A DNA stretch of 64,000 nt, from the NCBI GenBank assembly GCA_019454045.1, contig SKCR01033432.1:310001-374000 (forward strand), given 5' to 3'. The notes under the pieces are model-generated. The model was not told the DNA's origin and made no database searches. It was given only the letters and a program-made list of their open reading frames with translations. The position numbers were made by a program, and so were the translations under genes. Below are positions 9,154-53,751 of this stretch, piece by piece (position 1 is the stretch's first letter; each line of letters begins with the position of its first letter). Source of the stretch: Zanthoxylum bungeanum. Its lineage: Eukaryota; Streptophyta; Magnoliopsida; Sapindales; Rutaceae.

Positions 9154-10201
9154 TGCACGCTCATAAAATGGTCTTTTACTCCTAAGTATCAGAGTATTGA
9201 AGTAACAAAATAACCCGATAAGTCCGGGGGTGATCTACAGGGAATAAATTTAGCAAAATAGAATGATAAATAGAGCGAAAAGAAAAAGGTTTGATTTTTG
9301 GAAGTTGTTGGAAACTTTTAAGTGAAAATGCAATAATAAAATGAAACCATCTATAAAGGCGGTGATAGCGTATAAAACCAGCCATAAAGACGGTGATATC
9401 GTTTGTCTATAACAAGTCCAGTTAGGTACTCAATTATGCTAAAATCGTATAAAACCAGACATATAGACGACAGAAAGCTATAACCAGCCATATAGGCGTT
9501 AACCAATTTTGTTAATAATAAATCCATATCTAAATCAAGTTTTAATCATTAGATTATAATTATTTATTATAATTTAAGCGAGATTGATCTAAGTTTTTAA
9601 TTATAAAAGCTTCACCCTTTACCTCAGAAAAAAGAAACTAGCTACTAAGTTTGTAATTAAAAATACTCATAATTTTATTACTTAAAGAAAAATATATTAA
9701 AGAAAGCTTTAAATAAATAAACACACAAGGAACTCTTTTCAAAAGTCTATAGAGAAATCGGAAAGAAAACATGAAAATTTCTTTTGCCAGAAGCTTTAAT
9801 TTATAGGCAAAATTTTGTTCACTCGTCGTGACGCAGGTGCCAATTTTGTACATGTGTCGAAAGGTTAGGGCATCACGACGCTAAAGTTCTGGGTGTTGTG
9901 TCACAAAAAGCGGTTCTTGTGGTGTCTTTGTCTTAATGGGTGCGTCGCGATACTAAGTCCTTGAGCGTCACGATGAGCATGCTGAAATTTCATTTTTTCC
10001 CTTTTCCAAGTCTGGTTTTTCCTATCGAGCTTTCAAGCAGTATTTTACCTACCAAATAATAAAAATACATAATAAAAATATACGAAACATTCTTTAAAAT
10101 TATTATTTCACAGACGTGCTAAATTAAGAGGATTAGTGAAACTACAAGTGTAAAATGATTGATTTTGCGTATAATAAATATGCACATTTTAGTGTTCATC
10201 A
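9154..10201 (-). repeat. Athila 3' LTR
   Basis: This 1048-bp LTR reads TGATGAACACTAAAATGTGC at its sense start (10201) and ends ...GAGCGTGCA at 9154. It aligns with the right-hand LTR but lacks about 200 bp that the other copy has between roughly 50150 and 50380. Both carry degenerate repeats of aaaccagccataaaggcgg. Confidence 0.85.
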
Positions 10202-10215
10202 CACCCCCAACCAGC
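10202..10215 (-). other. Athila polypurine tract
   Basis: The minus strand reads gctggttgggggtg directly before the LTR start TGATGAAC. This purine-rich stretch is the expected plus-strand primer site. Confidence 0.7.
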
Positions 10216-11547
10216 TTATTACTAGTCCCTAGTAATTCAAGAGAAAACTGAAAAATTCTCATATAAGTTAATAATTGTTTTCTTTCTTTCTAAAGGATCA
10301 AATATATAAATTCTGATGTTCTTTTTACTATTCTTCCATACACTTATACAATAAGGTATTAATTAATTGATTGGTCCCACAATATTCACAGGTATTTATT
10401 GAAAGAGAGTAATATTTTTATCTTAAAATTATATTAGAATTCGGACCTATTGGCAATGAAAGTTTATTTACAAATACATCTTCAATCCTTATATCGAGCT
10501 TTGGGCCAATGACTCCCAAACCAGTTGGTTTTAGGGCAATAAGTGTTAAGACACCCCTACGGACTTAATTCCTCGGATCTCATATATATATATATTTTTT
10601 TAAAAGGTGAACCATTGTAAAGAGTTTTGGGCCAGTGACTCCTAAACTAGTTGGCCTTAGGGCACTAAGTGTTAAGACAACCAAACAAACTTAATTACTC
10701 GAGTTAAAAAGGCTACAAAAATGAACTTATTCAAACTCCAAAATTTTTTTAATTTTTTCTTAACAAGCTTTACTGTTTTACTTGAACAATCACTACTTGC
10801 TGAGGCAAGATGTCCGGTTACTGAGTAAAATCTTTATTATATTTTTTTATTAAACTAAATCAAGTTCTATCATTTTACGCGAACAATCAATGCCTGCTGA
10901 GGCAAGATATCCGGTTACTAAGTAAAAGCATGATTAGTTATATATATATATATATATATATATTCACTGCCTTTTGGTGTTACCTCCAACAAACTAAAGA
11001 ACTGAATATTACAAAATTTTCACTTACTACTCATGAGCATATATTACTATGTCGTTGATAATATCTATCAAATGAGCATAAAAAGATCAAATTTAATGAA
11101 TATTATGGAGAATTCATAAATTTAAATGATTCAAAATTAAAGGAACAACAAATAAATTCTTATGCATTATTTTGAAATACGTCTCAAGAGCGAAAGTTCA
11201 TTACACAGCCACCTCCGAACAACAATTCCACTTGGTTTAGAAAACAATTTGTTTTTAGAGTGTGTGTGTATATATGGATATATATTCTTACACAAAAAAT
11301 TATCGACAAAGTAAAAATAAATTTTTTTGAATAAAAATCGCGACGAAAAATGAAAATTATCTTATAAACTATCATCTCCCCAAACCAAAATGAGACATTG
11401 TCCCCAATATTTAAAAAAAAAATAGAAGTGGAGTTTAGAAGATATCTCCTGGTTAGTGTGGAATTGACAATTGCATCTACGACTAATGATTACAGATTAA
11501 TATCCAAATTTACTCTGCATTTTTTGCCATATCGTTACCAAACCAAT
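10216..11547 (-). other. Athila 3' untranslated region with two local duplications
   Basis: About 1.3 kb without a credible gene between the LOG-like pseudogene and the PPT. Two tandem duplications are visible. One is a unit around 10499-10570 repeated at about 10622-10690, with the core actcc(c/t)aaac(c/t)agttgg. The other is a unit at about 10765-10830 repeated at 10868-10930, with the core gctgaggcaagat(g/a)tccgg. A TA microsatellite lies at 10941-10962. Long non-coding 3' regions are common in Athila. Confidence 0.6.
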
Positions 11548-12141
11548 TCATTTGGAAAGGATATGGTCGATTTTTGGTTCATAAGTTAAGAGTTGGTCAA
11601 TTAAATCATCAGCTTTTCTTGCAGTTAGGAAGATATCTCTTACTGGTTTTGAAATAAACCCATTTCTTTTGGCATCTTCAAAAAATACAAAAATAAAATT
11701 GAAAAATCCATTAACATTAAATATCCCAATGAGATTTTGGTAAATATTCAAGTTTTCCCATGACGCAACTGTGAATATTTCTTCCATCGTGCCCAGCTCA
11801 CATAGTAAAGCAATAAAAGTGTTAGAATGATTGATCATTTCAGTGAGTCTTTCAGATATACCTGGGACAATGTATTATTTTCCATTTGATTTTCCAATGA
11901 TATTATCATTTGTCAAGGGTTTTGGAATAATCCCCAAAACCTGACTGTCACATTCTTATACAACCATTGAAATACATCCCATCAATCCAATATTACCATT
12001 GCCATATGCTAAGTGCATGTTTTTATTTACCATAACTCTATCCAATTCTTTTGCAGACTCAACAAATTCTGGTTTAGTTCCAGAGCTATTTCCATAAAAT
12101 AAACAGATATTAGTGACTCGTCATTTTGAAGTTGTCTCCAT
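11548..12141 (-). pseudogene. Intronless LOG-family pseudogene (cytokinin-activating enzyme) carried by the Athila element
   Basis: A single minus-strand frame runs from ATG at 12141 to a stop at 11548, about 197 codons, close to the 200-220 residues usual for LOG proteins. Internal stops sit at 12121-12123, 11956-11958 and 11875-11877; there is no frameshift. Blocks in LOG order: NICLFYGNSSG (family FCGSS), HLAYGNGNIGLMG (family YGGGSIGLMG), VLGIIPKPL (family GVIPKTL), TFIALLCELGTMEE (family FIALPGGYGTLEE), then GIFNVNGFF and NGFISKPVR near the C-terminus. LOG enzymes release free cytokinin bases from riboside monophosphates in the cytosol. The GTxxE part of the catalytic motif remains, but PGGY has become CEL. 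Plant LOG genes normally have several introns; none is present. The frame lies between integrase and the 3' LTR in retroelement sense, suggesting capture. Family call firm; enzymatic activity not expected. Confidence 0.82.
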
Positions 12142-12191
12142 TTGTGCTATGTCTCTTAGCTAGATATATTGAAGAGAGATAAATGATGAGC

Positions 12192-12203
12192 TGAATTTAT
12201 AGA
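12192..12203 (-). promoter_or_regulatory. TATA-like box upstream of the LOG-like frame
   Basis: The minus strand reads CTATAAATTCAG about 50-60 bases before the ATG at 12141. It is followed by a pyrimidine-rich stretch (tttatctctcttcaat) that could hold a transcription start. The spacing suits a plant core promoter with a very short leader. In an AT-rich element the match could be chance, so this is suggestive only. Confidence 0.4.
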
Positions 12204-12399
12204 TCCTGAAAAGGGAGTGAGTAATAAATGCACTAGTACTTGCAAATGATAATTATCAGTAAAATAGATCATGAATAAAAATGGTTAGCTATTGTCGGTA
12301 AAAAGTGAAGAACAGTAAAGTAAATCAAAACAGTAATTAAAATCAAAGCAATAAATATATACTGACAGTTGTGATTGTGGCTCACATCTTCCTCTGATT

Positions 12400-12976
12400 T
12401 TACGTCCAGTAACAGCTTGAACGCCCTCTATGTGTCGGGGATAGGCTTCCCATCAAACTTTCTTCTAAATTACCAATATAGTCTTTTAAAGTAAGATTTC
12501 CGAGACTATATTGTTGTATTTCTTTTTGAAATTGTGTATGTAAATTGTGAATCTCACGATTAACATATATACTAGCTTGCGTCTCAAGAGTTAATGATAT
12601 ATCATCTAAAGACTCCTTACTTAAGCCATCTTTAATGAATATAATTTTATCTTTGAGATTATCAGACATCATTCTTAAAGAACGATAACGAGTGTTGCAC
12701 GTACATAATGCATATTTATAACGAACACCTAATCGTTTAGCTCTTCTTTTTTTTTACATTGGTATTTTCCCCTAAACCAGACATGTAAGAAATGAAAGAG
12801 TCAGATGACTCACCTGTCAAGCTAACTTTTGCTTCAATTACCCAACGAATATCACTAGGAATACCGTGAATCATAAGAAGCCTCATTGTTTTTGTGCGTG
12901 CTTTGTAAATTTTTGTAAGATCATTCTGGGGATAAGAAGGAAAATATTTGTAGAGTTTTACGAGAGTTTCTTCCAT
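12400..12976 (-). pseudogene. Unrecognised ORF downstream of Athila integrase
   Basis: Two minus-strand open segments, 12976-12737 (79 codons from MEETLVKLYKYFPSYP) and 12672-12400 (90 codons), read as one protein of about 190 residues if a frame change is allowed at the A-run (poly-T on the plus strand, about 12745-12754). The junction region is strongly basic (KKKRAKRLGVRYKY). The second half looks helical and amphipathic (NREIHNLHTQFQKEIQQY). No membrane segment or signal peptide is obvious, unlike the env-like ORFs described for some Athila relatives that occupy this position. I do not recognise the family. It could be a diverged third ORF or another captured gene. Confidence 0.5.
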
Positions 12977-13145
12977 TCTTTAGTTGTAGGGTATCATTAA
13001 TTTTAGGAGACTGAAATAACCGACTTTGAGTTACAAAATACCGTTATTCGCTGCTTAACTAGGGTGTGAGAAAAAGACAAATATGTTGCAAAACTAAGAA
13101 AATGGAAATTATAAAAATATTAAACAGAAAATAAAAGAAATTACA

Positions 13146-14280
13146 TCAATCACAATACACTGGGTTTGATAGGAAAAAAGATTCTCGAAAATTTGAACAC
13201 TCCAAAAATGGTTTAAGACGTTGTCCATTCACTTTAAATATATCATCATCCCTAGGATTCTCAATGTCAATAGCCTCATATGGATAAATGTTTTTCACAA
13301 TAAATGGGCCACTCCACTTGGATTTCAATTTTCCAGGAAATAAATGAAGATAAGAATTACAAAGAAAAACCTTTTGACCAACTTCAAATGTTGTTTGTGC
13401 AATTCGACTATCATGAAAGGCCTTAGTTTTAGCTTTAAGAATTTTTGTATTCTCATATGAATCATTCATTAACTCTTCAAGTTCATTTAATTGAAATTTA
13501 CGTTTGTGACTGACATTTTTAAGGTTTGAATTGAATACTTTAATAGCCCAATATACTTTATGTTCAAGTTCTACAGGCAAATAAAAATGTTTTCCATAAA
13601 CGAGACGATAAGGTGACATTCCCAAAGACATTTTGAAAATTATTAGGTATGCCCAAAGTGCATCGATTAATCAAAGAGACAAATCTTTACGATTTGGGTT
13701 AATCATTTTTTCTAAAATTTATTTAATTTCCCTATTCGCTAATTCAACTTGACCATTTGTCGAAAAGTGATAGAAGGTGGAAACTTTATGTGTGACTCCA
13801 TATTTTTTCATTAAGGACTCAAAGGGTCTGTTATAAAAGTGTTTACCTCCATCACTTATAATGGCCTAAGGGATTCCAAATCGACTTAAAATATTTTTTT
13901 TAATAATTTGATCATAGTTGTGTGATCATTATTCTGACAAGGAATCGTCTAAACCCATTTAGAGACATAATCGACTACAACTAAAATATATAAAAATCTA
14001 AATGATGGTGGAAATAGGCCCATGAAATCTATCCCTAAACAATCAAATATTTCGATGATAAGGATGGGTTTTGAAGGCATAATGTTTCTTTTTGAAATGG
14101 ATCCCAACTTTTGAGAGTTTTCACAAGTTTTGTAGAAAGTTTGTGTATCTTTAAAAATGGTGGGCTAATAAAATCAACACTGTAAGATTTGTACCGTAGT
14201 TTTCTTAGATGAAAAATGACTCCACATGCTTCTGAATGACAAAACTAAATAACACCACTTATCTCACTGTGCGGTATGCA
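13146..14280 (-). pseudogene. Athila integrase (C-terminal part open, core decayed)
   Basis: The segment 13631-13146 is an open frame of 161 codons with the Athila integrase C-terminus: MSPYRLVYGK, LPVELEHK, QLNELEEL, then a KLKSKWSGPF block typical of the C-terminal DNA-binding region. Upstream, 13632-14280 covers the zinc-binding and catalytic core but is full of stops and frame changes. Integrase joins the retroelement cDNA to chromosomal DNA. This copy cannot encode a working enzyme. It is the last pol domain; ORF3 begins about 170 bp further on. Confidence 0.8.
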
Positions 14281-14880
14281 TCATCTGAAAATCTGATCAG
14301 GACAACATTTAAACAGATATGGATCATCTAAATAGAATCTTTTAACTTCGGTCAAAAATTTTCTTATGTCTTGTTGGCTCCAGTCTGGAGGTATCTTTCT
14401 TATTGCAAGAAAATTGACAATATTAGCATACAAATACATTGTGTTTACAGAGAATAAAAACTCATTCGGAAATGAGTCATTGATGTGAGTTGTATCAATT
14501 AGTGACTCATTTATGAGTCTCGATAAATTATCTACAACTATGTTATACACCCATTTCTTGTCTTTGATTGTGACATTGAATTCTTGAAGCAACAAAATCC
14601 ACCGTATTAATCTTGACTTTGCATCTTGTTTAGACATCAAATATCTAATAGCAGAATGATCAAAATAGACAATGATTGAAGAACCAATTAAATATGATCA
14701 AAATTTATCCAATGCAAATATTATAGCAAACAGTTCTTTTTCTGTGGTAGTGCAATTCATTTGTGCATTGTTTAAAGTTCTACTTGCATAATATATTACA
14801 TGTGGCTTACCTTCCTTTCTCTGTCCTAGAATTGCACCAACTACATAATCACTAGCATAACACATTAGCTTAAAAGGCAA
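14281..14880 (-). pseudogene. Athila RNase H and connection region
   Basis: The frame 14880-14698 starts MPFKLMCYASDYVVGAILGQ and continues HVIYYASRTLNNAQMN and TTTEKELFAI. These are the hallmark RNase H motifs of Ty3/gypsy polyproteins (Asp in the CYASD block, Glu in TEKEL). The frame 14640-14281 continues with QDAKSRLIRWILLLQEF and VDNLSRL. A stop and a frame change separate the two. X1 was inserted exactly at the upstream end (14887), and the coding sequence resumes at 35325. Confidence 0.85.
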
Positions 14881-14881
14881 T

Positions 14882-14886
14882 GACCA
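14882..14886. repeat. Target-site duplication (left) of Copia X1
   Basis: GACCA precedes the LTR at 14887 and recurs at 35320-35324 after the far LTR. Athila pol sequence continues directly across it. Confidence 0.85.
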
Positions 14887-15490
14887 TGTTGGTTTCTAAT
14901 TAGGTCCAAAGATCATTATAAGCATGAAAAACATATGTGAATACATCAACGGAGATAGCGGAATACTCACATCGATCGGTTGAGACGATTTGATGAAGAA
15001 CAAAACTCATTTTATGGGCCTCCAAGATGCGCCCACTGCAGCAGTCCACTACCCAAAATTTTCAGTTTTGAGTGATGATTTTGAGCTCCAAGCTTGAATC
15101 AAATGGTTCCCAGCTCGTGGGTGGGTTTCCCTATCACCTTCGTATAACTCTCGGTGTGCTAGCACTTCTGATTTTGCCACAAAATCAACTCCTAAATCCC
15201 CTTACTGCTCACATTTTTTCTGTCCATGGCAGCCCCTTGGGCGTGAACTTTGGGAGGGAGAAAGAGAAGGAGAGATGGAAGAAAGAGAGAGAGATGTGTG
15301 TTATGAATTTGCATTTGGGTTTCAAGTGTATCTAATACACTTCTTGTGAATTTCAAATGAATTTCATTTGAATTTGCTTTTAAAAAGTCAAACAATTAAA
15401 AGCCAACAACCACACATCATGTCACATCAAGTCAAGTGTCAAGTCACATCCCTCAATCAAGTTGTCAAGTCACATCACTCAAAGTGACAA

Positions 15491-15562
15491 GTGATTTGAC
15501 GCTTGAAACGACTAGTGATTTGACGCTTGATGCGACTAATGATTTGACGCTTGATTTGACTT
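15491..15562 (+). repeat. Three tandem 24-bp repeats in the family-X LTR
   Basis: Units at 15491-15514, 15515-15538 and 15539-15562 share the core tgatttgacgcttga followed by a variable end. The same array is in the X1 5' LTR (about 33825-33895), and two units remain in X3 (about 44115-44160). Short tandem repeats like this often act as enhancer elements in retroelement LTRs, but that is not shown here. Confidence 0.8.
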
Positions 15563-15629
15563 ACGTTCTGCATTCGAATTCGAAATGCGAATGCGCTCGC
15601 AAATAATTTCGGGCTCGGGTTCGATAATT

Positions 15630-15937
15630 CCAAATTAACGAATTATCCGTTGCATTGCAATTAAATCTAATTTAATTAAATAATCATGCCAAGCATAATT
15701 ACTATTCACGTTGCTAACGAATTAATTCCAAATTAATTCGTTCGCCCGAATTAAAATCTAATTTTAATTCCACGTCGAAATCCAATTTCGTTTAATATAT
15801 CGAATATATTAATTTACCGATTAATTCCAAATTAATTGTTATCTCTCTTTTATTGATATTTTATCCAAGATAAAATTTCTCCGAAATTAATCCTAGATTA
15901 ATTTTCTCTCTTTGCTAATTAATCCCAGATTAATTAA
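15630..15937. repeat. Chain of short palindromes with 3-nt CNR spacers
   Basis: Successive perfect or near-perfect inverted repeats, mostly with 7-12 bp arms, have a 3-base spacer. Examples: AACGAATTAATT-cca-AATTAATTCGTT shortened to its core, CGAAAT-cca-ATTTCG, TTAATATAT-cga-ATATATTAA, ATTTTATC-caa-GATAAAAT and AAATTAATC-cta-GATTAATTT. A further unit lies at 15324-15342 (AAGTGTAT-cta-ATACACTT). Equivalent chains are in all family-X LTRs: 19667-19936, 27721-27985, 33955-34270, 44221-44570 and 48717-48985. Confidence 0.85.
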
Positions 15938-16840
15938 AGTGCGAGTCATACGTCATTGGTGAATCTTTGGGAAGCGACCCATGAGATCCCCGGATATGTT
16001 GGCAGTAAATTCGGTCGTCGGACTATCCGAACACGTAAGTACCTCGTACTACGTTTTACCGATTTACAAGACAAGGTTGGCCTCTAGCAAAGCGCAATGC
16101 CTATCCAATTCTCCGGAAATATCCTTACAGGAATAAGGGATCTGTATCAGGCGTAGTATACGTAGTATTGCGTATTCCTGTCCAGTATCGGATGATCACT
16201 TGCTAGGCCTAGGGCTGGAATTATGTGTGCCCCGTACGAAGCACATATCGGATGTCTGGTAACTAGTCTCTATAATCGGATAAACCTGACCTAGTCATTT
16301 TATCCCGATAGCTGCAGCATTTAAAAGTACTAATATCGTATCCTACGTGACCATCATCTCCACTAAGACTAGAGTGATACTTCCGTCTTGACATCACACC
16401 CAACACACTACGATTCTCAATATGCCCAGTATTGGCGTACACATAACCTGTTAAAGCCCTGGACGACCGCAACCAAAGTATATTGATTGTCGCAAGTATT
16501 AGCGGTGCAAGTCTCAGGTTAAGACTAAATACACCTACCCTGATTTCGGACTTCCATAGACACATAGTCATACTACCAATGGAATTCCGAGGGGGTCTAT
16601 CTAGAGCGAAGCTGTTTCCCATACCATCGGTGAAACACAACCTCCTATTACACTTGCATGAGTATCCTATACCCAAAAATATGAGAACTATGTCGTTGTG
16701 CCCTCACAACACGCACAAGTGCAATACTAGTATTTTACGTATTTATCGATGTCCAATCTCGATAATAATCTGACTAGAGATATTTAATGATTTATCCTTC
16801 GTTGATTGATACTGTCTCATATCATTCTCAATCAAGGAAC

Positions 16841-17848
16841 AAATAAGCTTAACATGTATTGTTGGAATGTTGAATGTGCATTACAAAGTCCAAAAGGAAT
16901 TTTCCTAAATACAAATATTCCAATGCGGCATGTGAATATGGTATTTTCCTAGTCTTCTAAAGCAATGGGAATCTGATAATACCTAAGTATCCATCAAGAA
17001 AACAATAGTATGGATGTCCAACTACTCTTTCCAAAATTTGTCAAGAATGGTAAAGAGAAATGTTTTTTCCAGTTGCGTCATTTAGTTTTCTATAATCAAT
17101 GCACATACGCCAACTAGATGGGATGCGAGTTGGGATTAATTATCCTTTATCATTTTTTACAACAGTAATTCTTGATTTTTGGGTACAACTTGTGTAGAAC
17201 TTACCCACTTACTATCAGAGATATGGTAGATAATGCCTAAATCAAGAAGTTTAAGGACCTCGATTTTTACTATTTCTTTCATGTAAGGGTTTAATCTTCT
17301 TTGGGGTTGATGATATATTCTAGTATTATCTTCTAAATGTATTTGGTGTGTGCAGATTAATCGATTAATGTCTTTTATGTCTTTTAAAGCCCATCCGACT
17401 GCTAGTTTATGTTCTTTCAACATATTTAACAACTTACCTTTTAATTGCTTGTAAGAAGAGAAGAAATTACCACAGGGTAAGTTTGTTTATCTTCTAGAAA
17501 TGCATATTTCAGTCCTTCTAGCAAAGCTTTTAACTCCAATTTGGGTGCTTCCTCATATTTTTCTTCTTCCAATGTTCCTAGTTCTTCCAAATTTTTAATC
17601 TCTCATTCGTCTTCCAATATCTATGTACAGTCAAGTAGAAAATCATTAGTAATATCCGAATCCATTTCCGTACTTGATTCAACAAAATTACATGTCTAAA
17701 TTTTCATGGGATCCGATAAACTCCCATGAATATGCTTATCCATAATTGGTTCAATTAATTCTATGCTTTCGTTTTCATTATCCTCAGCATATGGGTGTTT
17801 GGACATGTTAAAAATATTTACCTCCAATGTCATGTTGCCAAAAGACAG
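16841..17848 (-). other. Athila RT-to-protease patch inserted into X1
   Basis: These 1008 bp are nearly identical, in the same orientation, to Athila sequence at 35750-36726 joined to 45625-45658, that is, the Athila region without the X3 insertion. The left junction shares AAAT with the X1 LTR and the right junction shares ACAG with Copia RNase H sequence. On the minus strand it encodes Athila RT with several stops (AVGWALKDIKDINRLICTHQ and IIYHISDSKWVSS are readable). It replaces the end of X1 pol, the PPT and the LTR start. Confidence 0.85.
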
Positions 17849-27125: not shown

Positions 27126-29034
27126 TGTTGGTTTCTATTATTGTCCCAAGGAAAGATAAGCATATGAAATACAACAAATGAATATATAATAAACTTGAAG
27201 CATGGCGGAATCATACTTACAAAGCTTTTGTGATGAAAAGATGAACAAAGGTTGAAGCTCCAAGATCCTTTAGGTTCGGCCAAGAGGAGAAAATGAGTGG
27301 AAGCTCCAAGCTTTGTGTATTCCAAGCTCTTTGATGGTTTCCCTATCACCTCCTTTGATCATAAATGTGCTAGCAAAATGGAGAAAAGAAATCACAATTT
27401 CTTTTTGCCTTTGGAGCTCACGGCATTCCAAGAGAGAGAGAGGGAGAGAGTTTGTTTTTGTTTTGTTTTCTAAAACAATAAATGAAAAATAATACCAAAT
27501 ATTTGGTAATACCCTTCCAAAAAGTCAAACCTTTCCCTCCAAAAAGCCATTAAATGGCCTCACCAACTTCTTCATGAATAGTGACAATGTGTCACTTTAA
27601 TAAAGACTTGTGACATCTATCACCAAGTCATGTCAAGTGATGTGACTTCGCGATGTGACTTGCGGGTCCCACTCGTTTCAAAATACGAATGTGTCCGCAA
27701 ACACTTTCGGGCTCGGTTTCGCTAATTCCGAATTAACGAATTTCCGTCGCGACGTAAATTAAATAATTACGCCTAGCGAAATCACTATTCACGTCGCTAA
27801 CGAATTAATTCTAAATTAATTCGTTTGCCCGAATTAAAATCCGATTTTAATTCGCGTCGAAATCTAATTTCGTTTAATATATATCGAATATATTATTTTA
27901 CGATTAATTCCAAATTAATCGTTCTCTCTCAAAATAAGGCATTTTATCCAAGATAAAGTTTCTCCGTAATTAATCCAAGATTAATAAAGTTCGAATCAAA
28001 TATCATAGGTGAATCTTCAGGAAGCGACCCGAGAGATCTCCGGATATGTTGGCAGTAAATACGGCTGTCGGATAATCCGAACACGTACGTACCTTGTACT
28101 ACGTTTTTACCGATTTACAAGACAAGGTTGGCTTCTAGCAAAGCGCGATGCCTACCCAATTCTCCAGAAATATTCTTATTGGAATATTAGATCTATATCA
28201 AGCGTAGTATACCGTAGTATTGTGTACATCGATCCAGTATCGGACGATCACATGTTAGGCCTGGGGCTGGAAATGTGTCTGCCCCGTACGAAACATATAT
28301 CGGACATCAAGCAACTAGTCTCTTTAAATCGGCAATCCTGACCTAGTCATATTGACCCGACGGTTGCAACCTTTTATAGAGCACTAGTTCTGTATCCTGC
28401 GCGATCATCAACTCCATATGTCTGAAGTGACACTTCCATCTTGACATCACACCCAGTACACTACGATTCCTGATAAACCCAGAAGTGGTGAACACAGAAC
28501 CGGTTAAAGCCCCCAACCACCAAAACCAAAGTTTACCGATTGTCGCAAGTACTAGCGATGCAAGTCTCAGGTTAAGACCATATACACCTACCCTGATGCG
28601 GCCTCCCATAGACACGCAGACATACTACCAATGGGATCCGCGGGGGTCTATCCAGAGCGAAGCTGTTTTCCGTACCATCGGTAAAACACAACCTCCTATC
28701 GCACTTGCATAAGTATCCTATACTTAAATATATGAGAACTATGCCGTTGTGCCCTCACAACGTGCACAAGTGCAATACTAGTCTATTCCGCATTATCGAT
28801 GTCCGATCTCGATAATACTCCGACTAGGGATATTTAATGATTAAACCTTTATGTATTGATACTGTCTCATATCATCTCAATACGGAACTAATCATATGGA
28901 CTTTCGCCATTTATATATCAAAGTAAATAAATTACAAAACGGAAAAAGGCAATTTCATTATCACATAGTTAATTTTGTACAATAATACAATATCATTTAC
29001 AAAACAGTGACGCTATGGGTCATAATGTCTAACA
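27126..29034 (-). repeat. X2 5' LTR
   Basis: 1909 bp, nearly identical to 19060-20979, with the same palindrome chain (27721-27985) and the same 90-codon sense frame (28615-28343). The near-identity of the two LTRs indicates a recent insertion. Confidence 0.9.
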
Positions 29035-30300
29035 CTATACTTAATTGTTCCCTATGAAACCTTACAATTGACACCTATCCAATTTGGGTTCTAGTTTGGT
29101 ATCACGCAAAACATCTATGCTTAGCATACCCAAATATAGAGGAATGTGAAACCCGGTGGTTTCTTTCCCAATCATATCTAATAGAAATCTGTCAAATAGA
29201 TTTTTAATGGCACCTTATTCTAAATAAGTCTGCACTGTTAATGCTTATCCGTTGAAAGGAAAGGAAAAAAATAGCTCGAGCGACTCATGATTAACCTTAT
29301 CTTTCTAACCACATTCGGTTCTCAGTTTGACACATCGCAAATTACCGTGTTCGGGAGGAGTCCTAGTTGGAAAACTTACTATACTCTTTCAAGTATATTC
29401 GAAATTATTGCTTAAGTATTTCCATTACGGTCTTACGTGACGTTTTAATACTTTAGCCGATCTGTTTTTGTCTATTTGTGTCGAAACTTTAAGAGGTTTC
29501 TGATTTGTGTTTTCTTCAAAGAAACACATAACCATAACGCGAGGCACATCCGTGAAGGTACACAAAACATATCATATCCACATCTAGTCTTGCTAGACAT
29601 GGGCCCACTTGCTTCACTATGAACTAGGGCTAACAGGTCGGTGGCATTTACACTTTTACCAAGTAATAGTGTTTTAGGCACTTTGCCTAATAAACTAGAT
29701 TCGTAGACTATTTGATTGGAATCAAATCAGTCCTAGTACCCACTCTTCAACAGTGTGGATATACGATTCTTATTTGATTGTGTCCCAGACAACAACGCCA
29801 CATTAGTTTCATCTGATCAAATCAGTTTGAGCTATTTGTTTGTCATGTTATATGTTTCAGATATTATTTATATTCAAAATATAAATACCATATTCACATC
29901 TAATGTGTTTATCTCAATATTATCTTTATGTAATAAACACTTTAGTGTCTTAGAACATAAAGGTTCACCCGCAGCGGGGTTAAACACTGATATAGAGATA
30001 ATGTATCTAGTCAAACTAGTTACATTATAACAGTTTCCTAATTTAAGTACATACCCGAGGGTAGTTCATAAAATTAGGTATCTACGGTTAAAACAGCGAC
30101 TTTCGTCCCCTTTTTCATTCGCAGATTAATCTCAATTGAAGTCAGTATCCTGCTCACAGCAGATACTACACATCAGTACATATTTATGTACCTCACTAAG
30201 TATTTTAAAATCTAATTTTAATACTAGTAATGAACATAATTTTGACAAACATATTTAAAGTCAGAGCCTTACCCTTTCTTTAATTCCTTCATGTCTGCTT
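29035..30300 (-). pseudogene. X1 integrase and GAG-pre-integrase relic
   Basis: Minus-strand fragments match the X2 integrase half but carry many stops. LLALVHSEASGPMSSKTRCGY is readable near 29600, equivalent to the LLALVHSDVVGP block of X2. Aligned X2 coordinates run through integrase into the protease region. X3 (about 40300-41420, reverse complement) shares many of the same lesions. Confidence 0.75.
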
Positions 30301-33213
30301 TGTCCAAACGGCAGTCACGCTTACGCGATCCCGTTTGCCACATTTAAACAGACATTTTAGGATATGTCATTTATCTTCCCATAAGATTATAATGATTTTG
30401 CCTTTGCCCCTTTTTAACATTTTAGAAGCTTTTGGCCTAGCCTCGGCCTTCTAGAATATCGAAGTAAGGTCCACCTTGCGCTACTTGCCTAATTAAAAAG
30501 TTTGACTTTGTCTCATTGAGAACAGTCATTAACTCTCCAAGAGTTATAATTGCAATTTAGTACTTCTAAAATCTAAACATAGATTATGAAGATCCTTCAA
30601 TTTCAGTATCTACTTTAAGGATCTAATCCTTAGTTCTAATTTAGAAATTAAGGAGTCTACTGCGACAAGCTTAATGGATTAAGCACTAAATTTATCATTA
30701 CATAAATCTTCCAAAGATTATGCTCGACTATTTGCTTAACTCCGGGATTAGGCTTAATAGATTATTTTATCAAATAAAATATCTTATTATTTTCCAGGAC
30801 CATCCTGAATTAAACCATTTAAATACATTTTCCTTAGGATTATGTATTAAACGTTAATCTTTCAATTTTATATCTTGATTCTAATAGTCTAACTATTTAA
30901 TCAACGATTTAGGTACTATTTATTATAATGATTACAATAGTCCAACTATTTAATCAGCTATAATTTTAATAGATTAAAAAATCAATTATATTGATTACTA
31001 TAATCAAATTATAAAATCAACTGTAAATGAATAGTTTGAATATAGTCCAACTATTTATTAAACACAACGTTTAAATATTAGTCCAACTAACATTTAATTT
31101 TGTAACGACGAATGATATTTGTTTGAGCGTGTATGGCAAGCAATTAAACGAATATTGCAAATTCAATTCTTGCCTCCCACTATTTTTCGGCGAGCCTCTA
31201 ACCTCTGTTGAGTACTCGGGAAATCGTGTTTCCTAGTGGGCTAGGATCCCGTTAAATATCACACAATCTTGACTTTGGCCAACAAATTGTATGATAATTA
31301 ACTAGGTAGATCTCTAAGATTAATTGGATCCAATCCAATTCCTAGATCCGGTAGGAGGACATCCAAGTCCGAAACATATATCTTGTATATGCCAATACAT
31401 CCAATGTATTACCTAACCTTTTTCCTCTGAATCAACTAAGCCTTGGCTTTGGCACAACAAGCTTAATGATCCCAGTTAAGCGGAACCCATTGACCATGGA
31501 AAGCTTCATAATCAATGTCGATGGACAAGAAGTGGTCTTGACTTTGGCCAACAAACCACAACTTGGACAAGACACTGATATGGAACAAAGCCTTCGTGAT
31601 TCAAACACATCTTCGACAAACAAAGGCCTTGACTTTGGCCAACAAACCAATGCCGTCTTAGATCTTGAGTAAGAATCACTCAATGGAAGGAAAAACGCTT
31701 AATATTAATTGAAGGTTTTTCGCGTGCAAATTGGCAACCAATTTATTATCTTTGTTAAGGTCTCATGATCATACACCCTTAAACATGCATTCTAAACACA
31801 TAATAAGCGCGTATGAAAATAAATAATAATGATATGCGGATGGATACTTAACACATTGATCCTAGATCAAATCTCTCTCTTTCTCTCTCAAGCTAGCACT
31901 TGTATTACTTCTACCCGTTACACTACACTTCTAAAGAAACCTCATTTACATTGAGGGGAATAGGTGATAAGAGAATACAAAGAATAGGAGGTGATAAGGC
32001 TGGACACGCAGGTCCAATTTAATAAATCAAATTTATTACAATAATTTCCAAAATTGCCCCCACCCGACTAATATCCATCTGATATACATTATTCATTCAT
32101 CACAACCATGTATTCACACAAACATGTTATCAATCAATCTAATCAAATTAATTAATCTGATAATTAGTGATCATCCAATGTTCAAACAACGATTTGATTT
32201 TGCTCGAGTCAAACTCATTTTGCGAATAAGTACTCAAAGTACGAATTCTCGAATTAAATTAAACTACATCATTAAATCCAATTTAATGTGCATTTAATTC
32301 TAATTCGCTATTTAATTCCAAGTTAAATATTACACTTTAATAATAAAACTTTTACGACTTAAATTCCAAATTTAATCGTAACGCGTCTCAAAGACCGATT
32401 AACGCAACGTCAATTCAATTAAAGTCTAATGGGCTTTTAATTGATTTCTTAAGGCGTGGACTTTTGGTCAACTCGGGTCAAACCGAATAACCAAAATCCA
32501 ATCCGGGATTTACCCCATAAGCCCATAAATCAATCTTGGCCCATTAGGCCCAATTAAACTTTAAGTTTCATTAAGTCGCATTTGGGCTTAACGGAAGTGG
32601 TTTTTGGCCCCATTGGATCCAATCCATTTGGCCTAAACCTAACTTTGTACAACAAAGCCCAACAAGCCCAATTACAACATAATAAGCCCAAATCCAATTA
32701 AAGGCCCAATTAATTAAATTACATAAATCCAATTTCGCAATTTAATTATATAAAGTGTTCAACACAATTAATTCTCCAATTAACATTTCTAAAACATCAA
32801 TTAGCCTAATTAATCATGTTCATCATCATTATCACATGTCCAACACATTGATGAAAAATCAAACCCAATTTCATGCTTTAAAGTCTCGGCAATTTGGGGA
32901 TTTTTTGTCTGATTCGAATTCAATCCAATTAATTACACAATTGACATTAAATAATATACCCGAATGATTTCCAACACATCCAATGTCCAAAAAATCAAAA
33001 TTCCAAGACTTAATAGGGCTAAGGCATTCAGCCAACACATTCAATTTGGGGGAAAATGATCCAATCACATTTTCATGAAATTGATCCAATCAATCTTCAA
33101 TTCAACCACATTTAAGCATACTTAATCATCCAATTTCATAAAATCATGCTCAAATTCAAATACCCAAATTTTAAGCCCTAACTTTCATCTCAAACCTAGG
33201 CTCTTGATGCCAT
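30301..33213 (-). other. X1 degraded gag and leader
   Basis: No gene survives. The gag part (to about 31150) is unreadable except for scattered short matches. The leader resembles that of X2, with cttgactttggccaacaa-type motifs at about 31266, 31538 and 31628. The PBS, TGGCATCA on the minus strand, ends next to the LTR at 33214. Confidence 0.65.
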
Positions 33214-35319
33214 TGTTGGTTTCTAATTAGGTCCCAAGATCATTATAGCATGAAAGAATGATAAAATCACATACGGAAGATAGCGAGAGAGAGAAACGAT
33301 CGGTTGAGACGATCGTTTGAGACGATTTGTGAAGAACAAAACTCATTTTATAGGCCTCCAAGGTACGCCCACTGCAGCAGTCCACTGCCCAAAATTTTCA
33401 GTTTGGGTGATGATTTTGAGCTCCAAGCTTGAATCAAATGGTTCCCGGCTAGTGGGTGGGTTTCCCTATCACCTTCGTATAAATCTCGGTGTGCTAGCAC
33501 TTCCAATTTTGCCACAAAATCAACTCCTAAATCCCTTACTGCTCATATTTTTTCTGTCCATGGCAGCCCCTTGGGCGTGAACTTTGGGAGGGAGAAAGAG
33601 AGAAGGAGAGATGAAAGAAAGAGAGAGATGTGTGTTATGAATTTGCATTTGGGTTTCAAGTGTATCTAATACACTTCTTGTGAATTTCAAATGAATTTCA
33701 TTTGAATATGCTTTTAAAAAGTCAAACAATTAAAAGCCAACAACCACACATCATGTCACATCAAGTCAAGTGTCAAGTCACATCACTCAATCAAGTTGTC
33801 AAGTCACATCACTCAAAGTGACAAGTGATTTTACGCTTGAAACGACTAGTGATTTGACGCTTGATGCGACTAATGATTTGACGCTTGATTTGACTTGCGT
33901 TCCGTATTCGAATTCGAAATACGAATGCGCTCGCAAATAATCTCGGGCTTAGGTTCGATAATTCCAAATTAACGATTTATCCGTTGCGTCACAATTAAAT
34001 CTAATTTAATTAAATAATCATGTCAAGCATAATTACTATTCACGTCGCTAATGAATTAATTCTAAATTAATTCGTTCGCCTGAATTAAAATTGAATTTTA
34101 ATTCCGCGTCGAAATCTAATTTCATTTAATATATCAAATATATTAATTTACCGATTAATTCCAAATTAATCGTTATCTCTATTTTATTGATATTTTATCG
34201 TAGATAAAATTTCTCTGAAATTAATCCCAGATTAATTTTCTCTCTATTCTAATTAATCCCAGATTAATTAAAGTGCGAGTCATACGTCATCGGTGAATCT
34301 TTGGGAAGCGACCCATGAGATCCCCGGATATGTGGCAGTAAATTCGATCGTCGGACTATCCGAACACGTAAGTACCTCGTACTACGTTTTACCGATTTAC
34401 AAGATAAGGTTGGCCTCTAGAAAGCGCCATGCCTACCCAATTCTCCTGAAATATCCTTACAGGAATAAAGGATCTGTATCAGGCGTAGTATACGTAGTAT
34501 TGCGTATTCCTGTCCAGTATCGGAAGATCACGTGCTAGGCCTGGGGCTGGAATTGTGTCTGCCCTGTACAAAGCACATGTCGGATGTCTGGTAACTATTC
34601 TCTATATTCGGATAAACCTGACCTAGTCATTTTATCCCGATAGCTGCAGCATTTAAGATTACTAATATCGTATCCTACGTGACCATTATCTCCACTAAGA
34701 CTGGAGTGATACTTCTGTCTTGACATCACACCCAACACACTACGATTCTCAATATGCCCAGTATTGGCGTACACAGAACCTGTTAAATCCCTGGACGACC
34801 GCAACCAAAGTATATTGATTGTCGTAAGTATTAGCGGTGCAAGTCTCAGGTTAAGACTAAATACACCTACCCTGATTTCGGACTTCCATAGACATATAGT
34901 CATACTACCAATGGAATTCCGAGGGGGTCTATTTAGAGCGAAGCTGTTTCCCATACCATCGGTGAAACACAACCTCCTATTACACTTGCATGAGTATCCT
35001 ATACCCAAATATATGAGAACTATGTCGTTGTGTCCTCATAACGCGCAAAAGTGCAATGCTAGTCTTTTACGTATTTATCGATGTCCAATCTCGATAATAC
35101 TCTAACTAGAGATATTTAATGATTTATCCTTCGTTGATTGATACTGTCTCATATCATTCTCAATCAAGGAACAAATCACAATGACCTCTCATCATTTATA
35201 CATCTACGTGATCTAATCACAAATGATAAGAGTGCAATCTCCTTTGTCACATAGTTAATTTGTACAACAACACCATGATCTGTACAAATAGTGACGCTAT
35301 GGGTCATAGTTGTCCAACA
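33214..35319 (-). repeat. X1 5' LTR
   Basis: Complete 2106-bp LTR; sense start TGTTGGACAACTATGACCCA at 35319, sense end ...AAACCAACA at 33214, followed by the PBS. It carries the palindrome chain (33955-34270) and the 24-bp repeats. The TSD GACCA follows at 35320-35324, then Athila RT resumes. Confidence 0.9.
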
Positions 35320-35324
35320 GACCA

Positions 35325-36726: not shown

Positions 36727-37250
36727 TGTTGGGTTTTAATTGTTTGACTTTTAAAAAACAAATTCAAATGAAATTCATTTGAAATTCAAGAGAAGTGTAT
36801 TAGATACACTTGCAACCCTAAAGTAAACCTAACACACATCTCTCTCTTTTTTTCATCTCTCTCTCATTCTCTCCTTCTCCCTCTAAAATGCACGCCCAAG
36901 GGGCTGCCTTTAAGTGAAATTTTCGTGAGCAGTGAGGGTGATTAGGGGCTGATTTTGTTGTAAAATCCCTAGTGCTAGCACACCGAGAGTTATACGTAGG
37001 TGATAGGGAAACACACCCACGAGCCGGGAACCATTTGATTCAAGCTTGGAGCTCAAATAACCAACCAAAATCTGATTTTTCTGGGCGGTGGACTGCTGCA
37101 GTGGCGCCACCTTGGAGGACCTAAAATGAGTTTTGTTCTTCATCAAATCATCTCAACCGATTCGATGTGAGTATTCCGCTATCTCTTTTGATGTATTCAC
37201 ACATGTTTTTCATGCTTCTATTGATCTTGGGATCTAGAATAAAACCAACA
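36727..37250 (+). repeat. X3 partial 5' LTR (3' portion only)
   Basis: It begins at an internal family-X LTR position (tgttgggttttaattg, equivalent to tgttggcttttaattg in X1) and ends at the normal aaaaccaaca. PBS sequence atggcatcaagagcc follows at 37251. About three quarters of a normal LTR is absent. Confidence 0.85.
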
Positions 37251-37251
37251 A

Positions 37252-45619: not shown

Positions 45620-46291
45620 AAAAATATTTACCTTCAATGTCATGTTGCCAAAAGACAGATTAATGATTCTATTCCTGCAATTAATTAAAGCGTTAGATGT
45701 TGCTAAAAATGGGCAACCAAATATTGCAGGGATTGGCTTATAACTGTCTGCCACAGGTTGTGTTTCTAAGAAAATAAAAACCACATGATATATGATTTTA
45801 TCGACTTGTAATAACACATCTTCCGCAATTCCTTTTGGTACATTAACAGGGCTATCTGCAACTAAAAGAGTAGTTAAAGTTGGTTTTATCTCACCGATAT
45901 TAAGTTGTTGGTAAACTGAAAATTGAAGTAAATTTACACTAGCTCCAAGATCAAGCAAAACATGTTCAATGTTTTGACTTCTAATAATACAAGAAATAGT
46001 TGGACAACCAGGGTCCTTATATTTTGATGCATTATTGGTTGAGAGAATGAAGCTTCTCTGTTCTGCTAGAAAGGCTTTTTCTCTTACCTGATGTTTTCTT
46101 TTAACGGTGCACAAGTCTTTCAGAAATTTAGCATAAGATGGTATATGTTGGATGGAATCTAACAAAAGAATATTGACATTTACCTGTTTAAATATTTCAT
46201 AAATTTCTGGGGAATGGTTCAATTTCTTTGTTTTTAATGCTTGAGGAAATGGAGGTGCATATGACAAATTATTATTATCAACGACGGGCAA
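45620..46291 (-). pseudogene. Athila protease and gag C-terminus
   Basis: The frame from 46291 includes CPTISCIIRS, then VLLDLGASVNLLQFSVYQQL with the retropepsin D-x-G-A-S active site, VPKGIAEDVLLQVD, IPAIFGCPFLATSNALINCR and LSFGNMTLKVNIF, where X3 interrupts it. These are characteristic of Athila proteases, which cleave the Gag-Pol polyprotein. The window frame runs on into X3 LTR sequence, so residues after VNIF are not Athila. The frame itself is open, but neighbouring parts are not. Confidence 0.88.
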
Positions 46292-46342
46292 TGGTTCATC
46301 AACCCCTTCCTCACCCTCTGAATCTATTTTATTCTCAACTTT

Positions 46343-47782
46343 TCAAGGTTCAAGAATAGGTTTGTGGATGTCCTTGCCACTACAGAGTAATAACATATTG
46401 ACGTGGTCTAAGTGTTGATTTCTAGAACTACCCTCGTAAGGATTTAGATGACTTTTGGGATTTAACTGTGGTTGTGCAGAAAACTTTCCTTTCTCATTAA
46501 TGGTTAATGCATATGTGATTTTGGCAAAAGTTTCTCTCAAATCACTCATTATTTGTGCATTTTGGTTATTGAGGATACATGTTTCTCCATGAATGCATTC
46601 AAGGTATCCTCAATGGTTTTTCCTATATGATGGGACAAATGGTGCATAATTCTGGGAATTTCAGAAATTCTAGTGAACCTAAGGAGGTTGTTGCGATGAT
46701 TGTGCTTGGTTATCATTCCTACAATTGAAGTTTGGATGGTTTCTCCAACCATAATTGTAGGTCTTTGAGTATGGCTTTGGATTTGGTCTATTGAATGTGT
46801 TTACGAAACGGACTTGGTCATGAAGGCATTCTTGCAGGGCTGGCAATAATGGGCAAATTTGTGTGACATGTTCATTTGAATTACAGATTTGACATAGGAC
46901 TTCTTGAACTGACTTGACATAATCACTCTTCCTACTTCTAAAGCCTCAATTTTTTAAGAAAGAGATGCATACTGGACAGTAAGGTCATGGTCTTCCCTAA
47001 GGTTAAACATACATTTACTAGATAGTTGTTGTTTTATAGATGACTCATAAATGCCAACTGTATCTCATTATTGTGCATCCTCTACTATAAGTTCTAGGTA
47101 ATCTAATGCATCTTCGGGATCTTTATCCCTAAACTCATCGTTAAATATCATCTCCACTACTTGTCTAGCTTGGGGTGTTAAAATCTCGTAGAAGTACACA
47201 ACCAACCTCCATGTTTCAAACCCGAGATGTAGATAAACATTTAACATTTCTTTAAACCTCTCCAACATTGGTAAAGTGGTTCCCCCGACTCTTGTGTGAA
47301 GGTTGTGATTCTCCTCTTAAAAGAAGTTGTTATATAAGGGACAAAGAAATTTTTAAGAAACTATTCTTGTAAATCATCTCATGTTCTAATAGATCCCGAC
47401 TTAAGGTTTGACAGCCAAATTTTGGCTATGTCCTTTAAAGAAAAAGGAAAAAAAAATTTAAACGAATTAAATTCATGCTACAATTTTGGTATGTGTAAGT
47501 GTTACATACCTTTTCAAACTCCTTTAAGTGCTGATAATGATTTTCTGATTCTAGACAGTAAAATATGGGTAAAGGAGGATGATACATAATTTAAAATTGA
47601 AACATGTTGCATCTGGAGGAAAAACAATACAAGATAGTAATCTTGTCTTAATAGGATTATTATCTGAGTGTCCTAGGATGATTAGGATCTCCATGATGAG
47701 ATTCATTTTCTTCCTGATTAACTGGGTTTTCAACTCGGGCATGTGGATTTTCAACTGGATTTTCAATTTGGTTCTCAGCCAT
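46343..47782 (-). pseudogene. Athila gag
   Basis: The likely start is the ATG at 47782 (MAENQIENPVENPHARVEN). A typical retrotransposon gag block lies at 47268-47068 (MLERFKEMLNVYLHLGF, VVYFYEILTPQARQVVEMI, DKDPEDALDYLELIVEDAQ). A CX2CX4HX4C zinc knuckle (CQICNSNEHVTQIC) lies at about 46850-46900. Later frames 46752-46549 and 46549-46343 hold a proline/asparagine-rich tail. Several frameshifts and stops separate these pieces, so no gag protein can be made. Confidence 0.8.
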
Positions 47783-48026: not shown

Positions 48027-51000
48027 TGACACGCTCACAAAGTGGCCTTTTACTCTTAAGAGTGTCGAAGTAATAAAATAACCCGATAAGTCTGGGGTCT
48101 GTTGGTTTCTATGATTTGTCCCAAGATCATAATGAACAAAGAAATGCGAATGAATAATGAAGAAGTGAGGCGGAATCACACTTACATCGAACGGATTTGG
48201 ATGCGTCAAACAACAAAATGAACCCCTCCAAGGTGCTCCAAGATTCGGCCAAGACAAAGTAGAAGCTCCAAGCTTTAATTTGATTTTTCCAAGCCCTTGA
48301 ATAGGTTTCCCTATCACCTCTTGATGATCCTTGAAGAGTGCTAGCCCTTAGTGAATTTTTACAACAAAAACTTCACACTTTTCCTTCACAAATTTGGCTA
48401 AGAAATGAAAAAAATGGAGAGCCCAAAACTTGTTCAGTTTTCGGAAATGGGGAGAGAGAAGAGACTATGTGAATTTGATTTCAAAAATCAATATATTTGT
48501 TTCAAAAACAATTAATTAATCATATACCAAAAATTGGTTTAGGTATATGTCAACATGTCTTTCATCTTTCTTTATTTGGAGTGTCTTTCACTCTTTCACC
48601 AACCCACCAAAACCCATCAAACTAAAGTGACAAGTGATGTGATGGTTGATGTGACATGTGGGCCCCACTCGATTCCGAATGCGAGTGGGCCCGCAAACAC
48701 TCCCGAGCTCGGGTTCGCTAATTCCGAATTAACGAACTTCTGTCGCGACGTAATTAAATCGAATTTAATTAAATAATTATGCATAGCAAAATCACTATTC
48801 ACATCGCTAACGAATTAATTCTAAATTAACTCGTTTGCCCGAATTAAAATTTAATTTTAATTCCGCGTCGAAATCTAATTTCGAATATATTATTTTAATG
48901 ATTAATTCCAAATTAATCTTTCTCTCTCTTCAAATAGTACTTTATTCAAGATAAAGTCTCTCCGCAATTAATCCTAGATTAATTAAGTTCGAATCATACG
49001 TCATCGGTGAATCTTCGGGAAGCGACCCAAGAGATCCCTGGATATGTTGGTAATAAATTCTGTCGTCGGACTATCCGAACACGTACGTACCTCGTACTAC
49101 ATTTTTATCGATTTACGAGACAAGGTTGGCTTCTAGCAAAGCATCATGCCTACCCAATTCTCCAGAAATATTCTTACAAGAATATACGATCTTTATCATG
49201 CGTAGTATACCGCAGTATTGCGTATGCGATCCAGTATCAGATGTCACGTGTAAGGCCTGGGGCTGGAATAGTGTCTGCCCCGTACGAAGCACATATCAGA
49301 TATCTAGCATCTAGTCTCTTTGAATCGGATAATCATGACCTTGTCATATTACCCCGATGGTTACCACACAATAGAGAACCAGTTCTGAATCTCTGCGTGA
49401 TCATCATCTCCATATGTCTGAAGTGATAATTTCGTCTTGATATCACATCCAATACACTAGGATTCTCAATAAACCCAGTAGAGGCGTACACAGAACCTGT
49501 TAAAGCCCTGGACGACCAAAACTAAAGTTTACCGATTGTCGCAAGTACTAGCGATGTAAGTCTCAAGTTAAGACCAAATACACCTTCCCTGAAGCGGACT
49601 CCCATAGACACATATACATACTACCAATAGGATTCTGCGGGGTCTATCCAGAGCGAAGCTGTTTTCCGTACCATCGGTAAAACACAACCTCCTATCGCAC
49701 TTGCATAAGTATCATATACTTAAACATATGAAAATTATGCTGTTATGCCCTCACAACGCGCACAAGTGAAATACTAGTCTATTCCGCATTATCGATGTCC
49801 AATCTCGATAATACTATGACTAGGGATATTTAATGATTAAACCTTTATGGATTGATACTGTCTCATATCATCTCAATCCGGAACTAATCATATGGACTTT
49901 TACCATTTATATATATCAAAGTAAATGAATCGCAAAATGGTAAAAGGCAATTTCATTACTACATAGTTGATTTTGTACAAAAACACAACGTCTTTTACAA
50001 ACAGTGACGCTATGGGTCATAACTGTCCAACAGGGTCGATCCACAGAGAATAGATTTAGTAAAATAGAATGATAAGTCGAGTGAAAGGAAAAAGGTTTGA
50101 TTTGTTGAAGTTGTTGGAAACTTTTAAGTGAAAATGCAATAATAAAATGAAATACTAGAGTTTGGGGATCCACTTTTAATATTTCAACTCTAGAAATCTC
50201 GCTTCTTATAATATAAATTGTTCTTGTTACCCAATTAATTTATCTCATGAATTAAATATTCCAATATGTAGAACCGGCTATAAAAGCGGTAGTCATTTCT
50301 GTCAATAACAAGTCCTGCCAAGGTATTAAATATGCCAAAAACAAAAAACCAGCCATAAAAGAGGTGATACCGTATAAAACCAGCCATAAAGGTGGTGATA
50401 TCATTTGTCTATAACAAGTCTAGTTAGGTACTCAATTATGCCAAAATCGTATAAAACCAGACATATAGGTAGTAGCAAGATATAACCATCCATATACACG
50501 GTAGTCAATTTTGCCAATAATTAATCCAGATCTAAATCAAATTTTAATCATTAGATTATAATTTATTTAATATAATGTAAGGGAGATTGATCTAAGTTTT
50601 TAATTATAAAAGCTTCATCCTTTACACCAGCAAAAAGAAACTAGCTACTCATTTTGTAATAAAAAATACTCGTAATTTTATTACTGAAAGAGAAAGACAT
50701 TACAGAAAGCTTTAAATAAATAAACACACAAGACACTCTCTTCCAAAGTCTATAGAGAAATAGAAATAAAGCATCAAAATTTCTTCTGTCAGAAGTTTCA
50801 ATTCATAGGTAAAATTTTACCTACGCGTCGCAACACCAAAGCTATGCTCATCATGACGTTGATGCCAGTTGTGTACATGTGTCGAAAGATTAGGGCATCA
50901 CGACGATCAAGTCTTGTATGTCACTACGCGAAAGGCAGTTCTGCGATGTCTTTATCTTCATAAGCGTGTCGCGACACTAAGTCCTTGCGCGTCACAACAC

Positions 51001-51223
51001 GCATGTTGAAATGTCGTTTTTGCTCTTTTCCAAGTCTGGTTTTTTCAGTCAAGCTTTCAAGCAATATTTTACCAACCAAATAATAAAATTACACCATAAA
51101 AATATACAAAACATAACTTAAAATATTATTTCACAGACGTGCTAAATTAAGGGAATTAGTTAAACTATAAGTGTAAAATGATTGATTTTGCGTATAATAA
51201 ATATGTACTTTTTGTATTCATCA
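48027..51223 (-). repeat. Athila 5' LTR, split by solo LTR X4
   Basis: Left part 48027-48099 and right part 50038-51223. It aligns with 9154-10201 once X4 and its duplication are removed, leaving 1259 bp. It retains about 200 bp lost from the 3' LTR. The sense start at 51223 (TGATGAATACAAAAAGTACA) is followed by the ACTAC duplication at 51224-51228. The right part has repeated aaccagccataaaggtggtgat motifs (50270-50490). Confidence 0.85.
48100..50032 (-). mobile_element. Solo LTR X4 of the family-X Copia
   Basis: A complete 1933-bp LTR (sense TGTTGGACAGTTATGACCCA ... AAACCAACA) flanked by GGGTC at 48095-48099 and 50033-50037, with no internal region. It is most like the X2 LTR type (same tgttggtttctat end) and contains the palindrome chain at 48717-48985. 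It arose by recombination between the two LTRs of a full element inserted in the Athila LTR. Confidence 0.92.
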
Positions 51224-53574: not shown

Positions 53575-53751
53575 TACATATATATGTATATTAATTGTTT
53601 AATTATTTAATAGTTACATAATTAAATAATTAAAATTAGAAATCTTATCTTTTTTTCATAATTGCTATGACAAAAAGATAAGATTTCTAATTTTAATTAT
53701 TTAATTATGTAACTATTAAATAATTAAACAATTAATATACATATATATGTA
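53575..53751. repeat. Perfect 80-bp inverted repeat (hairpin)
   Basis: 53575-53654 is the exact reverse complement of 53672-53751, with a 17-base spacer. Arms begin tacatatatatgtatatt. The decamer ctatgacaaa lies at the spacer/right-arm border (53665-53674) and again just after the right arm (53752-53761). It sits about 80 bp upstream of the LTR TATA box. Confidence 0.95.

Follow-up and report, generated by a model that had tools for sequence, protein, structure and literature searches.

An intronless LOG-like gene, of the family that activates cytokinins, lies within an Athila-type retrotransposon in the window analysed here (the whole stretch of Zanthoxylum bungeanum DNA under study, 64 kb in length), and its position raises the questions of whether it is a stray insertion or a regular part of the element, and whether it could supply a working enzyme. 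The minus-strand LOG frame with its series of conserved blocks, as described in the initial annotation, was borne out by matches to the Pfam profile PF03641 (E 9.5e-22; 78 bits, cut-off 27) and to TIGR00730 (E 2.2e-31; 109 bits, cut-off 96.35); the equivalog NF058542 scored 60.9 bits, far under its cut-off of 300. The best solved relative was Arabidopsis LOG3 (At2g37210; structure 2a33; E 2e-38). Plant LOG genes contain introns, and the gapless alignment to LOG3 over 185 residues agrees with the earlier statement that the window copy has none. Three in-frame stops were also present as described (codons 7, 62 and 89, counted from the ATG at 12141). However, homology to the closest protein among the matches listed, the intact P0001 (217 aa; 76% over the query), revealed two frame breaks where none had been reported. 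The TGA at codon 198 (11550-11548), located after a frame break and previously taken as the end of the frame, is not the true end of the gene because homology to P0001 runs on past the second break to 11490, where a remnant of the C-terminal tail is found (VNLDINL and a stop; 11490..11513, minus strand). The LOG-like pseudogene thus covers 11490..12141 on the minus strand and corresponds to the 217-codon frame of P0001. The motif PGGxGTxxE is a hallmark of type-I LOG phosphoribohydrolases; in the window it reads LCELGTMEE, i.e. the catalytic motif has been lost. With three stops, two frame breaks and no uninterrupted frame the window LOG is a dead copy, and the notion that this copy itself is a source of the enzyme is not supported. 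An Rfam scan gave no match at the gathering threshold.

Read in the sense of the element, the window contains, in order and all on the minus strand, RNase H, integrase, an extra ORF, LOG, a TTGGGGACAATGT motif, a polypurine-tract-like TTGGGGGTG and an LTR. The RNase H region (14281..14895) is broken and matched PF17919 (E 5e-18) and PF17917 (E 1e-17 and 4e-8); it is followed by an integrase core fragment (13719..13865; PF00665 at E 0.0095, under the curated cut-off) and the integrase C-terminal region (13146..13670). The LOG had been placed between integrase and the 3' LTR, and this place holds, except that a broken extra ORF (12400..12979) also lies between integrase and LOG, separated from the latter by a further segment (12142..12399). 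Behind the LOG, reading of the sequence identified TTGGGGACAATGT (11395..11407) and the polypurine-tract-like TTGGGGGTG (10202..10210), followed by the 3' LTR (9228..10201), which starts with TGATGAAC at 10201 and whose outer end is not fixed. Neither the integrase piece used as a query nor the extra ORF (12979-12400) gave a Pfam match above cut-off; PF00665 was present in 13 of the best 120 of 1380 relatives of the integrase piece, and the extra ORF resembled, at 50-53% in two pieces, the tail of Rhamnella P0237, in which this tail is fused to the integrase C-terminus. From the wording of its integrase and RNase H, the element is a probable member of the Athila lineage.

The remaining coding pieces have been displaced by nested copia-type insertions. 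The start of the reverse transcriptase (RT) region (17157..17486, minus strand) had no Pfam match and was assigned by position, lying after protease and before RNase H in three other copies. A protease-region segment moved apart by the nested insertions (45620..46342) and a gag segment of the LOG-carrying family (47068..47316), both on the minus strand, were recognised by comparison with other family copies, and one part of the former (46252-46163) gave a 77% match to a segment in the Xanthoceras LOG models P0023/P0025. A second LTR of the family (50033..51223, minus strand) is either the 5' LTR or part of another copy; if the two LTRs are a pair, they differ at 127 of 967 aligned bases. The window may hold two copies, because the pieces ending at about 45.6 kb and starting at about 17.87 kb overlap in one short protein stretch, and dating of the element from its LTRs was dropped since they may belong to two copies. 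Among the nested copia-type elements there is an inverted pair (29031-33742 and 36727-41461; 88% identity across 4.8 kb) and a set of six LTR-like repeats related at about 77-97% identity, at 15.2-16.8, 19.5-21.0, 27.6-29.0, 33.5-35.3, 43.8-45.6 and 48.6-50.0 kb. A block in which a copia-type LTR adjoins an RT piece from the Athila-type family occurs twice (14887-17818 and 33214-36730), the two copies being 94-97% identical, and 177 bases at 53575-53751 are the reverse complement of themselves at 96%.

The genome (3,956,113,105 bases, 3.96 Gb, in 51,709 contigs) was searched with the LOG DNA, which gave 7582 first-look candidates, 40 of them scored; the candidates do not represent a copy count, and the scored rows are a lower bound. 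All scored matches spanned the whole query or almost all of it, with 87-89% identity, apart from the window itself at 100%. Of these loci, 39 were read (one near a contig end was omitted), and as one was the window (L001), 38 others remained. The same order of element parts was present in all 38: the segment preceding LOG was found in 38, the extra ORF in 35, integrase in 33, the 3' flank in 32 and the LTR in 29, some loci ending short of the LTR and seven having about 1.5 kb of sequence or less per side. Selection of copies by their LOG limits what can be inferred about linkage, and for presence, though for presence alone, this was answered by a second search, with the extra ORF as query (9142 first-look candidates, of which 40 were scored), in which 31 scored copies were on contigs outside the LOG list. 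The first 20 of these 31 were read downstream; LOG was present over at least 90% in 13, partially in five and not at all in two. Both LOG-less copies were truncated, either within the pre-LOG segment or shortly behind the point where it begins, and a clean empty site at the place of LOG was found in none of the 20. Because the order was the same in 38/38 copies and no clean empty site occurred among the 20, LOG belongs to the regular gene content of a high-copy Athila-type Ty3/gypsy family and is not a later insertion. The proposal that LOG was carried through transposition was therefore upheld, with all or part of the gene in 18 of the 20 extra-ORF-picked copies, and the contrary sign, LOG-less copies showing an unrelated later insertion, was not seen. 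When four copies were read 10 kb upstream, three had LTR, gag, protease, RT, RNase H and integrase in order, with coding pieces 83-89% identical to the scattered pieces of the window, and the fourth had integrase alone; the LTR pairs of the three differed at 38/469, 57/538 and 78/1113 aligned columns. In L015, L016, L018 and L019 (four contigs), and probably in L012, the LOG was within 1% of a copy on another contig and no 3' flank or LTR was found behind it, as in a recently copied truncated version or a duplicated assembly.

The least credible alternative, that a processed LOG retrocopy strayed late into one resident Athila copy, has in its favour the missing introns, the lack of any second LOG match elsewhere within the 64-kb window and the many nested insertions there, but it is refuted by the 38/38 order and by the 20 extra-ORF-picked copies, and moreover no poly-A tract was seen behind the LOG segment and the longest exact word common to its flanks (8 bases) is about that of random sequence (mean 7.6, maximum 12). 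Barely better placed, and still highly improbable, is the view that the repeat is a family of host LOG genes that multiplied by duplication and just happens to have elements close by. Some relatives are indeed named LOGL10 in Populus, for which the relevant part of one report counts 13 LOG genes (PMC3866579), but in the copies read element parts are ordered on both sides of LOG. That order refutes duplication of a host gene for the Zanthoxylum bungeanum genome only, and does not cover the named Populus genes.

We consider it likely that the window LOG is a dead copy of the regular gene of this high-copy family, inherited from an ancestor that had captured an intronless LOG. The parts of the family stand in the order LTR, gag, protease, RT, RNase H, integrase, extra ORF, LOG, LTR. 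The ancestor would have acquired its intronless copy either from spliced LOG RNA by template switching, which is given as a gene capture route in the part of the literature consulted (PMC13317346), or from an intronless gene, and the family would then have spread, LOG included.

Whether the element has any use for this gene is a separate matter. A single harmless capture could have been copied along with a successful element as a passenger without ever being useful to it, and we regard this as a serious possibility, though somewhat short of an even chance. The state of the copies is in keeping with a passenger. Intact frames, which the initial annotation proposed to look for in other copies, do occur, but sparsely: tblastn with P0001 gave an open stretch over the 217 codons in 6 of the 38 LOG-picked copies (stops in 30, a split match in 20) and in none of the 20 extra-ORF-picked ones (stops in 14, split in 12). 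PGGxGTxxE was kept in 20/38 of the former and in 5 of the 14 of the latter that cover it, and a C-terminal LxLxL was present in 28 of the 37 LOG-picked copies reaching the end and in 9/13 of the extra-ORF-picked. Pairwise dN/dS for LOG was 0.73 (528 pairs) compared with 0.54 for integrase (325 pairs), and the LOG value may be near neutral because the method ignores transition bias. Common LOG variants were distributed over the three codon positions as 33/37/32 and single ones as 93/80/73, without third-position bias, as a passenger would have it. But the integrase, in the same tests, was nearly as weak (common 19/13/24, single 67/53/57; a weak and not clear bias); the count on 28 loci gave the same picture. 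As integrase must have worked and yet gives nearly the same signal, the codon tests have little power and are compatible with LOG having evolved either with or without constraint in this genome's active lineage. The weakly constrained look of codon-position variants and dN/dS suggests that most differences between copies probably arose after insertion. Also against a passenger, LOG is no more divergent than integrase (mean pairwise divergence in up to 33 copies 0.087 and 0.102, with 0.096 for the extra ORF, 0.116 and 0.131 for the flanks and 0.181 for the LTR), although the LOG value is lowered because the 38 copies were chosen by LOG similarity.

Two further points against a passenger come from outside this genome, namely LOG domains in Citrus and Populus elements (in the part of PMC9289625 compared) and constraint in the database relatives. 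The latter were taken as the best 120 of 7389 database matches. P0001 was the best database LOG row for 54 of 56 genome loci and is therefore close to an undamaged member of the element family. A 108-row tree, built from 105 of the 129 LOG matches (chosen by length) with the window, LOG3 and LOG8 added, grouped the window with P0001 (support 99/83), their end branches being 0.28 and 0.034. Conservation was scored in an alignment, A2, of 35 rows chosen from the 129, with 11 of the other 34 rows tested, each excluded from its own scoring. All 11 change 1.5-16% of conserved columns against 33-62% elsewhere, whereas the window, with stop codons and the last 20 residues excluded, changes 19/65 conserved columns (29%) and 25/129 others (19%; Fisher p 0.15). 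Of ten controls, nine deviate at no more than one invariant column; the tenth, P0027, deviates at 5/26, near the window's 5/21. Within one database clade the Spearman correlation was 0.36 with outgroup entropy and 0.15 (p 0.04) with window-clade entropy, which is weak. The database relatives thus evolve under constraint, part of which may stem from host LOG genes among them. Searches of viral contigs with the LOG alignment and with the integrase piece, and of genome contigs with P0001, gave no confirmed relative.

Among the matches listed, PGGxGTxxE is present in 99 of the 118 rows of at least 170 aa, but MHxRK in only 6 of 105. A C-terminal LxLxL occurs in 86 of these 105 rows, a basic patch in 94 and both in 85; of the 19460 windows (12 residues each) taken elsewhere in the proteins, 24 contained LxLxL. 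The clade of database matches listed around the window has a strict LxLxL in 12/20 rows and the catalytic motif in 19/20. We liken the LxLxL tail to an EAR motif and the basic patch to an NLS, both presumptive names. The basic patch followed by a terminal LxLxL can be seen in, e.g. P0001, P0002, P0044, P0079 and P0110; the LxLxL is missing from the Xanthoceras rows P0090/P0127 and from P0039/P0041/P0051. A single-sequence model of P0001 was poor (pLDDT 45), hence the prediction was rerun with the 35 rows of A2 and reached pLDDT 84, the tail (203-217) staying under 50. Foldseek matched this model to 2a33 (E 1e-22) and to the AMP-bound LOG 5zbk (E 9e-20), so that the intact relative is predicted to have the LOG fold.

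Active copies of the family may differ from the window copy. They would most likely express a working LOG-type phosphoribohydrolase and thereby release free cytokinin in the cells where the element is active, although we put the odds of this no higher than about even. Expression might start at a promoter-like stretch that is short and conserved, or rely on splicing into an acceptor-like CCCTTTTCAG site before the ATG. The TATA-like box reported 50-60 bp upstream is there, as TATAAAT at 12201-12195 (minus strand), 54-60 bp ahead of the ATG, but this alone means little because the 7-mer occurs 38 times on the two strands of the window. An acceptor-like CTCCCTTTTCAG is located at 12217-12206 (minus strand) in the pre-LOG segment. 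Bases 12243-12175, which precede the ATG by 34-102 bp, match the N-terminal extension of P0003, as a similar stretch does that of P0021; in neither case did any of 2000 base shuffles score as well. Use of the pre-LOG stretch as a promoter or for splicing is a guess, as is any benefit to the element through more cell division or meristem activity. If the gene is active, a repeat with thousands of candidates would place the last step of cytokinin activation under retroelement control, and the open frames together with the intact P0001 make this testable at the bench. A bolder and rather doubtful extension is that the LOG-derived gene, with its basic patch and EAR-like LxLxL tail, would serve Athila-type elements across several plant orders as a functional accessory gene, maintained by selection on the element, and that its product would free cytokinin in meristem cells and might bind a TOPLESS-type co-repressor in the nucleus. 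Were it true, a repeat among the most abundant in a genome would act on the hormone state and gene expression of its host.

The association of LOG with retroelements, which the initial annotation had considered novel, is not new: LOG (YgdH) domains have already been reported in Gypsy-type elements of Citrus and Populus. In the part compared, PMC9289625 reports for Citrus sinensis, C. clementina and Populus trichocarpa that consensus LTR elements contain YgdH domains (apparently at least five consensuses in each Citrus species, Populus trichocarpa being without that filter), places all atypical domains of its screen in Gypsy-type elements and states that the Citrus and Populus result agrees with Steinbauerova et al. 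2011 (Genetica 139:1543). The likeness to our family is a LOG-type domain within Gypsy-type elements of trees; here, in addition, the gene holds a fixed position within a very high-copy Athila-type family, whereas the part of PMC9289625 compared is silent on lineage, position, copy number and selection. The same source describes an AlkB-type RNA demethylase ORF in Phalaenopsis Gypsy elements, likewise a case of a Gypsy family with an established host-type enzyme domain; that protein is active in vitro, whereas the element LOG is known here from its sequence. The env-like genes of some Athila/Tat elements, as treated in the relevant parts of PMC7264820 and PMC9040795, are similarly sense ORFs between pol and the 3' LTR, but in our family the gene is of a host enzyme type and adjoins the LTR after a further ORF. 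A literature search, with most subscription journals outside its reach, found no further treatment of element-borne LOG genes. With the plant LOGs of solved structure (At2g37210 and At5g11950; 2a33 and 1ydh) the element LOG shares gapless colinearity, the predicted fold of P0001 and, in most rows, PGGxGTxxE; it differs in having no introns, in its LxLxL tail and in the rarity of MHxRK, and the window copy also in its lost motif. Even if LOG is a passenger, counts of annotated LOG genes in plants may be inflated by element copies. In Xanthoceras, two of the five long LOG gene models contain a protease-region stretch of such elements.
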